A model generated the notes under the pieces. The model was not told where the DNA came from. It made no database searches and saw nothing but the letters and a program-made list of their open reading frames with translations. A stretch of DNA of 64,000 bases, from NCBI GenBank assembly GCA_902196205.1, contig CABIKM010000011.1:62001-126000 (forward strand). The letters are read 5' to 3'. Made by a program: the position numbers and the translations under genes. Every line of letters starts with the position of its first letter. The stretch's first letter is position 1. Source of the DNA: Candidatus Methylomirabilis lanthanidiphila (GTDB lineage: Bacteria; Methylomirabilota; Methylomirabilia; Methylomirabilales; Methylomirabilaceae). Shown in pieces: positions 61,862 to 64,000 of the stretch.

Positions 61862-62884
61862 ATGGATCCGGCGCAACTTGATTCGTTCAGGGTCGCCCGC
61901 TTTTCGCTCACGCTTGAGGCCAGGGATCGGTTGCGTCTCCCGCCGTACAAAGGCTCGGCCCTTCGCGGCGGCTTCGGTCACGTCTTTCGAAAAGTCGCCT
62001 GCACGGTTCGCGGCGGCGAGTGCCCGCCCTGCCTCCTGAAATCCGCCTGTCCCTACGCCTACATCTTTGAAACCCCGCCGCCGTCCGATTCCGCGATCCT
62101 GCGCAAATACCCTCACGCCCCGCATCCGTTCGTCATTGAACCCCCAGACGACGCGACCACGATGTACGAACCCGGCGCGCAGCTCACCTTCGGTCTGGTC
62201 CTGGTCGGCAAGGCGATCGACTACCTCCCGTACTTCATCTACGCCTTCGAAGAGCTGGGCCGACTGGGCATCGGACGAGATCGCGGCGCGTTTCGCCTGG
62301 CAGAGGCGCGGGGTGAAGCGGCGTCCGGCGAAGGCGACACCTGGCGGCCCATCTACAGCGGCGACAGCAAAATCTTAACCAACGGCTTCCTCATCCGCAC
62401 CGCCCGCGACCTCTTTCACAATCACGAACACGCCCACGATCCCGTCCACGATCCCGTGGGTGCCCCCGTCCACGAACACGTCCACGATCACGAAGTGGTT
62501 CTCCACCTCCTCACGCCCATGCGTCTGCGATTCGACGAGGCCCTGGTCAACCACCTCGACTTCCACGTCCTGATCCGAAACCTCCTGCGACGTCTCTCCG
62601 CCCTGTCATATTTCCACTGCGGGCGACAGCTCAACCTCGACTTTAAGGAGTTCATCGCAAGCGCTCAGGAAGTCAAGGCGGAGGAGACTGACCTCCGTTG
62701 GGTCGATTGGACGCGCTACTCGAATCGCCAAAAGCGAAAGATCCAAATGGGCGGCCTCATCGGGCAGGTGACGTACAGCGGTCCCCTCGCCGAGTTTCTC
62801 CCGTTCCTCCGACTCGGCGAACTCGTCCACGTCGGCAAAGGCACCGTCTTCGGGCTAGGGAAGTACACGCTGAGAACCGAGTGA
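61862..62884 (+). CDS. cas6: CRISPR-associated endoribonuclease Cas6 with His-rich insertion
   Basis: 340 aa RAMP protein that in its family cuts precursor CRISPR RNA. The N-terminal RAMP region has LPPYKGSALRGGFGHVFRKV, followed by a cysteine cluster (GECPPCLLKSACPY) seen in one Cas6 clade. The C-terminal glycine-rich loop is GGLIGQVTYSGPLAEFLPFL plus HVGKGTVFGLGKY. Between about residues 186 and 211 a His/Asp/Pro-Val tandem (HNHEHAHDPVHDPVGAPVHE) interrupts the domain; it comes from short direct DNA repeats. A Cas10-like gene follows 770 bp later on the same strand, with a toxin-antitoxin pair between. No array is visible in the window. Confidence 0.85.
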   Translation: MDPAQLDSFRVARFSLTLEARDRLRLPPYKGSALRGGFGHVFRKVACTVRGGECPPCLLKSACPYAYIFETPPPSDSAILRKYPHAPHPFVIEPPDDATTMYEPGAQLTFGLVLVGKAIDYLPYFIYAFEELGRLGIGRDRGAFRLAEARGEAASGEGDTWRPIYSGDSKILTNGFLIRTARDLFHNHEHAHDPVHDPVGAPVHEHVHDHEVVLHLLTPMRLRFDEALVNHLDFHVLIRNLLRRLSALSYFHCGRQLNLDFKEFIASAQEVKAEETDLRWVDWTRYSNRQKRKIQMGGLIGQVTYSGPLAEFLPFLRLGELVHVGKGTVFGLGKYTLRTE

Positions 62885-63011: not shown

Positions 63012-63293
63012 CTATTGCGACAGGAGATCCCTGAAACTTTCATAGACATCCCGGCGGGGGCCAACGTAATGAATCTCAATACAAGACTCGTCGTCGTTGA
63101 TCCTGTAAATGATGCGGTACCTCGCGACGCGGAAGGATCGGAAACCGCTCAATTCAAACTGGAGTTCATGGCCTGCGAGGGGGGCTTTCAACAGCTCATC
63201 GATTCCGCTCCGGACGACGGCCTTAACAGTCGGATGAAGTTTTCTGATGATGGCCGCGGCTTCGGCGGTATACCGTGCCCGATAGGGCCTCAT
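63012..63293 (-). CDS. RelE/ParE-family toxin
   Basis: 93 aa toxin of the RelE/ParE superfamily: RYTAEAAAIIRKLHPTVKAV, then LQFELSGFRSFRVARYRIIY and ESCIEIHYVGPRRDVYESF, with the basic residues expected for RelE mRNA interferases. The start MRPYRARYTAEAAA overlaps the antitoxin stop as ATGA; a start 33 bp upstream would create a longer overlap and is less likely. It is paired with the preceding antitoxin. Confidence 0.88.
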   Translation of the reverse strand: MRPYRARYTAEAAAIIRKLHPTVKAVVRSGIDELLKAPLAGHELQFELSGFRSFRVARYRIIYRINDDESCIEIHYVGPRRDVYESFRDLLSQ

Positions 63294-63562
63294 GCGCTCC
63301 CAAAAACCTTTTCGTGGCCGATCCACTTGCCGGCCCTGGCCTCCCGACGGGAACGACGAAGAGAGGCCATAGCCTTCTCATCGCTTAAGATGTCAATGGT
63401 CTCCAGGAATCCTTCGAACTTCTCTGCGCTGAGCAGTACGGCCGCCGGAACCCCGTTCTTCGTAATGGCGATGATGTCATCCTTCGCCTGGAGATCCCTG
63501 ACCAGATCCAGTAGCCGAGTCTTAGCCTCCGAGACAGGAATGAAGCGGTCAATGTCCTTCAT
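63290..63562 (-). CDS. Phd/YefM-family antitoxin
   Basis: 90 aa. The N-terminal DNA-binding half has FIPVSEAKTRLLDLVRDLQA and the Phd signature DIIAITKNGVPAAVLLSAEK; the C-terminal part (DEKAMASLRRSRREARAGKW) should wrap the toxin. An AAGGAGG site lies just before the ATG. The gene precedes and overlaps the toxin gene. A strong promoter with an internal palindrome upstream fits autoregulation. Confidence 0.9.
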   Translation of the reverse strand: MKDIDRFIPVSEAKTRLLDLVRDLQAKDDIIAITKNGVPAAVLLSAEKFEGFLETIDILSDEKAMASLRRSRREARAGKWIGHEKVFGSA

Positions 63563-63655: not shown

Positions 63656-64000
63656 ATGACTCCAGAAGAGCGCGTCGAATATCAAACAGTGGTCTTGGGT
63701 GCTTTGCTATACGACGTCTGGCGGTATCTTCAGGCTAGTGAACTGGAACCAACGACCATGTCGGAGTCTCCGCAGTGTGGCTGGAACTTCGTAGCAGCCT
63801 GGAGGGACAAGTTCGCGCGTTGTACGAACGCTGACCTACTGGAGGTACTCGTGCAACGCCGGCATGAAACGCATCATCCCAATACGCTTTTCAAGATGGA
63901 TGCGACTACTGATCCTCATCACCGTGCGTTAGTGCGCCTCGTCTGTCAAGCCCATAGGCTTGCTTCGGGCCAACCCGAGGGACACTATGACGAAGCAAAG
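63656..64000 (+). CDS. Cas10/Csm1-like protein, N-terminus only, degenerate HD motif
   Basis: 115 codons from an ATG with GAGG upstream, open to the window end. The sequence ERVEYQTVVLGALLYDVWRY aligns with the start of type III-A Cas10 (Csm1), where the family has a GALLHDIGKF-type HD motif. LLEVLVQRRHETHH matches the usual LVQRHHE block, and RALVRLVCQAHRLASGQPEG matches the region before the first palm domain. The HD histidine is replaced by Y19 and the following Gly-Lys by Trp-Arg, so DNase activity is doubtful. The palm domains are outside the window. Assignment rests on pattern recognition and genomic position after cas6. Confidence 0.7.
   Translation, partial: MTPEERVEYQTVVLGALLYDVWRYLQASELEPTTMSESPQCGWNFVAAWRDKFARCTNADLLEVLVQRRHETHHPNTLFKMDATTDPHHRALVRLVCQAHRLASGQPEGHYDEAK

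Follow-up and report, generated by a model that had tools for sequence, protein, structure and literature searches.

A type III-A CRISPR locus in 'Candidatus Methylomirabilis lanthanidiphila' with a degenerate Cas10 HD domain and no detectable csm5

The type III-A system of Serratia/Prodigiosinella ATCC 39006 (PDB 9zs2, 9zs4; PMC13060164) combines a Cas10 that has a degenerate HD domain with an active cyclase. Interference consists of cyclic oligoadenylate (cOA) signalling and Csm3 RNase activity; both cOA and the effector are required, and the H17A substitution has no effect (PMC13060164). A recognisable HD is found in 65% of III-A loci and is missing from 35%, and the cyclase is present in 92% of type III Cas10s (PMC11229360). 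Canonical III-A systems of the Thermus type (csm1-csm5) have an intact HD and carry Csm5 after csm4. Csm5 caps the complex and binds the crRNA 3' end; in Staphylococcus it recruits crRNA-maturing nucleases, and when csm5 is deleted crRNA maturation stops and the remaining complex still forms (PMC9762709). The III-A2 variant of the 2025 classification (PMC12669027) is a III-A-derived, cOA-signalling system with a reduced complex, without identifiable Cas11 (Csm2).

The locus in 'Candidatus Methylomirabilis lanthanidiphila' shares with the ATCC 39006 system a degenerate HD and a cyclase that is predicted to be active, and the same scheme of interference is proposed for it. However, the ATCC 39006 system has csm5 and uses the effector NucC (cA3), whereas here the predicted effectors are a CARF-HEPN protein and a CARF-membrane protein (CARF-TM). 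Csm1, Csm2, Csm3, Csm4 and Cas6 are held in common with the Thermus-type systems. The likeness to III-A2 lies in a III-A origin, predicted cOA signalling and a reduced complex, but the present system has Csm2 and lacks Csm5. The term 'Csm5' is absent from the main text of that classification (PMC12669027).

The window, a stretch of 64,000 nucleotides (G000:C11:62001-126000), ends within an open frame on the forward strand (63656-64000) that leaves the window edge and reads MTPEERVEYQTVVLGALLYDVWRYLQ...VLVQRRHETHH...CQAHRLASG. These are the first 345 bases of cas10/csm1. Contig C11 extends to 128600, and the complete gene (63656-66094 in window numbering, C11:125656-128094) encodes 812 amino acids free of internal stops. 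The protein scores 479 bits against the NCBIfam Csm1 model TIGR02578 (cut-off 170), spanning profile positions 2-753 of 753, and is also matched by the Pfam palm2 model PF22335 (104.9 bits), by Csm1_B (75.9 bits) and by PADLOC. Its best PDB match over the whole length is the Serratia III-A Cas10, about one third identical over the matched stretches. In a search of the genome (99.98% complete) it is the sole Cas10. The first-pass annotation had proposed a Cas10/Csm1-like gene with a lost HD motif next to cas6, and the full-length gene, complete with palm and altered at the HD ligand positions, bears this out. The cas6 gene (61862-62884, +) encodes a pre-crRNA endoribonuclease of 340 amino acids (Pfam PF10040, 75.2 bits, cut-off 25; PADLOC Cas6, 381 bits). 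Cas6 and cas10 are separated by a pair of genes on the reverse strand (63012-63562): a ParE/RelE-type toxin gene (63012-63326; Pfam PF05016, 37.9 bits, cut-off 23), which is a passenger, and a Phd/YefM antitoxin gene (63290-63562; Pfam PF02604, 54.8 bits, cut-off 29.8), also a passenger and probably not part of the CRISPR system. In the related locus L060 cas6 and cas10 are adjacent.

In an N-terminal alignment of 31 Cas10s, 12 positions are conserved at a threshold of at least 90% (L17, L18, H19, D20, G22, K23, R27, H38, H69, H70, A99 and D100). Seven of these are altered in the window Cas10, which has Y19, D20, W22, R23, A27, S38, R69, H70 and H100; among H19, D20, G22, K23, R27, H38, H69, H70 and D100, just D20 and H70 are retained. 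The changes at HD ligands are H19Y, H38S, H69R and D100H. Judged from the alignment, this loss of the motif is far beyond chance. The Pfam HD model PF01966 (cut-off 22) is detected at 26–28 bits in all four relatives tested (L024, L020, L025 and L060), and is not detected in the window Cas10. The N-terminus is nevertheless the same domain, since hhalign still matches it to a profile of HD-intact sequences (99 columns, probability 98, E 2.5e-13). With the ligands excluded, the mean ratio of HD identity to identity in the rest of the protein is 0.85 between the window Cas10 and its relatives, against 0.91 among HD-intact relatives. Because this similarity is close to that of the rest of the protein, the domain seems to be retained and not simply decaying; the pattern points to a lost metal site on a scaffold that is kept. 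An AlphaFold2 model of the 115-residue fragment within the window (pLDDT 81) matched nothing meaningful in the PDB, in a fold search that is weak at fragment level by its own control: an HD-intact relative (pLDDT 91) returned an HD hydrolase as its top match and Csm1 (6o7b) in tenth place, at E values of only about 1–3. At the HD motif the control model shows a helix break that the model of the window fragment does not.

The nearest Cas10s, 36–40% identical over residues 200–700, belong to III-A loci of Nitrospirae, Nitrospinota and Chloroflexi (L060, L024, L039, L023 and L025). These loci also lack csm5 wherever they reach far enough, and in L060 the gene order is also the same, with CARF-TM and Csx3 included. 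In contrast to the window Cas10, their HD ligands are intact and the Pfam HD is detected where tested. Ligands are kept in L023 and L025 (Chloroflexi) and in L024, L026, L060 and L039 (Nitrospirae/Nitrospinota), and the loss in the window Cas10 is an event of its own lineage. Separate losses occur in the sample in a Lachnospiraceae group and in L062, L069 and L084, with four or more changes along the tree, and L021 has lost the motif too. The loci of Lachnospiraceae and related Bacillota (L041-L053) resemble the present one in being HD-degenerate and csm5-less with GGDD intact, but their loss is a separate one on the Cas10 tree and much of the HD ligand region is missing. Loss of the HD had been singled out as remarkable in itself; given the frequency of III-A loci without a recognisable HD (PMC11229360), that emphasis does not hold. 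Such loss is ordinary in III-A, and alone it makes the locus one more example of a signalling-only III-A system.

The palm motifs are intact, with DVD (KADVDYLG) at residues 564–566 and GGDD (YSGGDDLLLI) at 622–625, and both are also present in all other Cas10s aligned across the palm region. The suggestion from the opening bases that the system would lack Cas10 DNase activity and act through signalling and target-RNA cleavage only, subject to a look for GGDD, is thus supported: because the HD ligands are lost and DVD and GGDD are intact, Cas10 would not cut DNA and would keep cOA synthesis.

After csm1 comes csm2 (PF03750, 53.1 bits, cut-off 24.8; TIGR01870, 48.5 bits, cut-off 30.6), with the same end point as in relatives. 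In L028 and L030 the gene at this position has roughly double the length and resembles a tandem of two Csm2-like units. Contig C11 then terminates in an IS3-like repeat that is found at many contig ends and of which a whole copy of ~1.63 kb lies at C12:43760-42127. Contig C28 (9.2 kb) begins in the opposite end of the same element (parts at L009:5568-5601 and L017:1-138, at the C11 end and C28 start respectively), and this multicopy element is the cause of the contig breaks. In L060 the order cas6-csm1-csm2-csm3-csm4-CARF-csx3 is uninterrupted. Because the halves on C11 and C28 are complementary, the genome holds one Cas10 and one Csm3, and L060 shows this order, we infer that one IS copy lies between csm2 and csm3 and joins the contigs, a link based on a collapsed IS repeat and synteny. 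An insertion at this junction may leave csm3, csm4 and the effector genes unexpressed. In plasmid pTB1 of Thermus brockianus a transposase gene likewise lies between csm2 and csm3.

Contig C28 carries csm3 (TIGR02582, 216 bits, cut-off 90), csm4 (TIGR01903, 73.8 bits, cut-off 55), a CARF-HEPN csx1, a CARF-membrane protein gene, csx3, a PIN/antitoxin-like pair (identified from the list of open reading frames alone), a reverse transcriptase (RT) gene, a four-helix-bundle gene, cas1 and cas2. Csm3 reads GGMDNP, with the catalytic aspartate that is lost in two relatives. The Csx1 matches PDLC01509 (255 bits) and has the HEPN motif R-x(4-6)-H as RNKSAIAH at 415; against NCBIfam csm6 it reaches 31.6 bits, under the cut-off of 150. 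The CARF-membrane protein has two hydrophobic stretches and matches the CARF8-TM model PDLC01943 (253 bits), and Csx3 matches PF09620 (32.7 bits, cut-off 21) and an NCBIfam model at 29.6 bits, under its cut-off of 55.4. The CARF effector and CRISPR array that were to be looked for are thus both on C28, which opens within the shared IS repeat. The effectors had been thought possibly novel, but they match known CARF-HEPN, CARF8-TM and Csx3 models. A tie between HD loss and this Csx1 was considered and set aside: its close homologues all stand beside HD-degenerate Cas10s (the window, L035 and L037), and these are too few.

Among the genes csm2-csm5 that were anticipated, csm2 (on C11) and csm3 and csm4 (on C28) were found and csm5 was not. 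The gene after csm4 is that for the CARF-HEPN protein, with no second Cas7 there, and a search of the whole genome with the Csm5 profile TIGR01899 gave nothing above cut-off. Loci of relatives were fetched from 84,980 genomes. No second Cas7 lies downstream of csm4 in the 27 csm4-holding loci with a Cas10 score of at least 200 bits, which span several phyla and, in 24 of 27, continue for 1.3 kb or more past csm4. In 42 III-A loci with lower Cas10 scores (more distant) a second Cas7 (csm5) follows csm4; the single low-scoring exception with more than 500 bases past csm4 is L066, where csm4 is broken. When 26 genomes from the csm5-less group were searched in full for Csm5, only G103 exceeded the cut-off, on other contigs; in G107 the end of a contig gives a weak N-terminal match. 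Three of the csm5-bearing controls exceeded the cut-off, and L057 reached 32.8 bits with a csm5 that is truncated where its contig stops. A protein substituting for Csm5 was also considered and rejected, as the csm5-less loci show no recurring unknown gene downstream of csm4.

On Cas10 trees from which the HD columns were removed, it is mainly the long-branched Thermus group that splits the csm5-less rows. Constraining them to one clade gives a slightly higher likelihood (AU test on 30 rows, p 0.72), so that a single csm5-less clade would be compatible with the data, though not proven. Given the absent Csm5, the gene content indicates a III-A variant and not canonical III-A. An uncapped complex is plausible because the Staphylococcus complex forms without csm5 (PMC9762709). 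No description of III-A systems lacking Csm5 was found in a search of open-access article text, and the group may already be recorded in data files. A tentative reading, to which we give somewhat less than even weight, is that these loci represent a deep, widespread and undescribed III-A clade without Csm5, with an uncapped Csm3 filament, crRNA 3' ends set by other means and repeated loss of Cas10 DNase activity, in effect minimal four-protein RNA-sensing cOA synthases. If real, a natural group of this kind would reveal which roles of Csm5 are dispensable, and would provide RNA detection with a more compact Cas10-Csm complex.

For the locus itself it seems likely that this is a type III-A system with a signalling-only Cas10, a four-subunit complex without csm5, and CARF effectors. 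Gene content, loss of the HD ligands, the intact cyclase and Csm3 aspartate and the absence of csm5 were read from the sequence, while the contig joining, the identity of the messenger and all activities are inferred. The crRNAs would come from the adjoining array and be produced by Cas6, and a Cas10-Csm2-Csm3-Csm4 complex lacking the Csm5 cap would find invader transcripts. Csm3, with its catalytic aspartate kept, would cut the bound RNA, and target binding would switch on the Cas10 palm to make cOA. The proteins Csx3 and Csx1 are of cA4 types, and the messenger is for this reason most likely cA4. It would activate two effectors, the CARF-HEPN RNase (Csx1/Csm6-like) and the CARF-membrane protein, and may be cleared by Csx3. 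The HD would serve as a helical scaffold without a metal site, and would give no DNA cutting by Cas10; targeting of DNA would fall to the type I-C system that the genome also carries.

The loss of the HD motif could also mean that the whole locus is decaying. The IS3-like element at the csm2/csm3 junction, the RT frame that ends early, and the finding of Cas10 in none of 14 same-genus genomes would fit a locus no longer under selection. However, csm1, csm2, csm3, csm4, csx1, CARF-TM, csx3, cas1 and cas2 all have open frames of the usual length, csm2 stops as it does in relatives, and the catalytic residues of the cyclase and of Csm3 are intact. Away from its ligands the HD is about as well conserved as the remainder of Cas10, and the leader-side repeats of the array are identical, so that general decay is unlikely.

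Were csm1-csm2 and csm3-csm4-effectors parts of different loci, both the effectors and the absence of csm5 would be misassigned; several contigs end in IS copies, which allows other joins, and there is no recognisable target-site duplication. Such a split is very improbable, given one Cas10 and one csm3 in so complete a genome and two complementary halves with an uninterrupted counterpart in L060, and the csm5 search took in the whole genome in any case. Least probable of all, with hardly any weight, is an HD that still cuts DNA through substituted ligands (D20, H70, H100 and the HETHH histidines). D20 and H70 do remain, with extra histidines nearby, but H19, H38, H69 and D100 are all replaced, the Pfam HD model fails to find the domain, and in the Serratia Cas10 a degenerate HD makes no contribution (PMC13060164). 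The signalling-only III-A system without csm5 thus remains the preferred reading.

The array on C28 has 37-nt repeats, identical on the leader side, and its distal end appears to lie at the end of contig C4. One of three spacers was tried against phages, with no match. Scans of viral contigs with Cas10 and Csx1 found no relatives, and a search for Csx1 in plasmids found none. A type I-C operon lies at one end of contig C45 (L126, C45:1-8200) with the repeat GTTTCAATCCACGCCCCCGCGCGGGGGGCGAC; its gene names beyond cas1 are a reading of the open frames. Upstream of cas1 in the III-A locus, the RT gene (L017:5610-6587) keeps YADD and its frame breaks near the end; it is separated from cas1 by the four-helix-bundle gene. 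In L024 (Nitrospirae) and L031 (Deltaproteobacteria) Csm3 reads GGAENT or GGSENT, in contrast to GGxDxP elsewhere; the RNase aspartate is seemingly lost and the HD is intact, a mirror image of the window system. Degenerate lone copies of the III-A repeat occur outside arrays at L017:3231-3263 and at L120:1760 and 1863. An array-distal spacer at the C4 end (L120:2164-2201), for which phages gave no match, can be read in reverse complement as VVFDGMEGVGKT, a P-loop, which would place its crRNA antisense to an mRNA of that kind.
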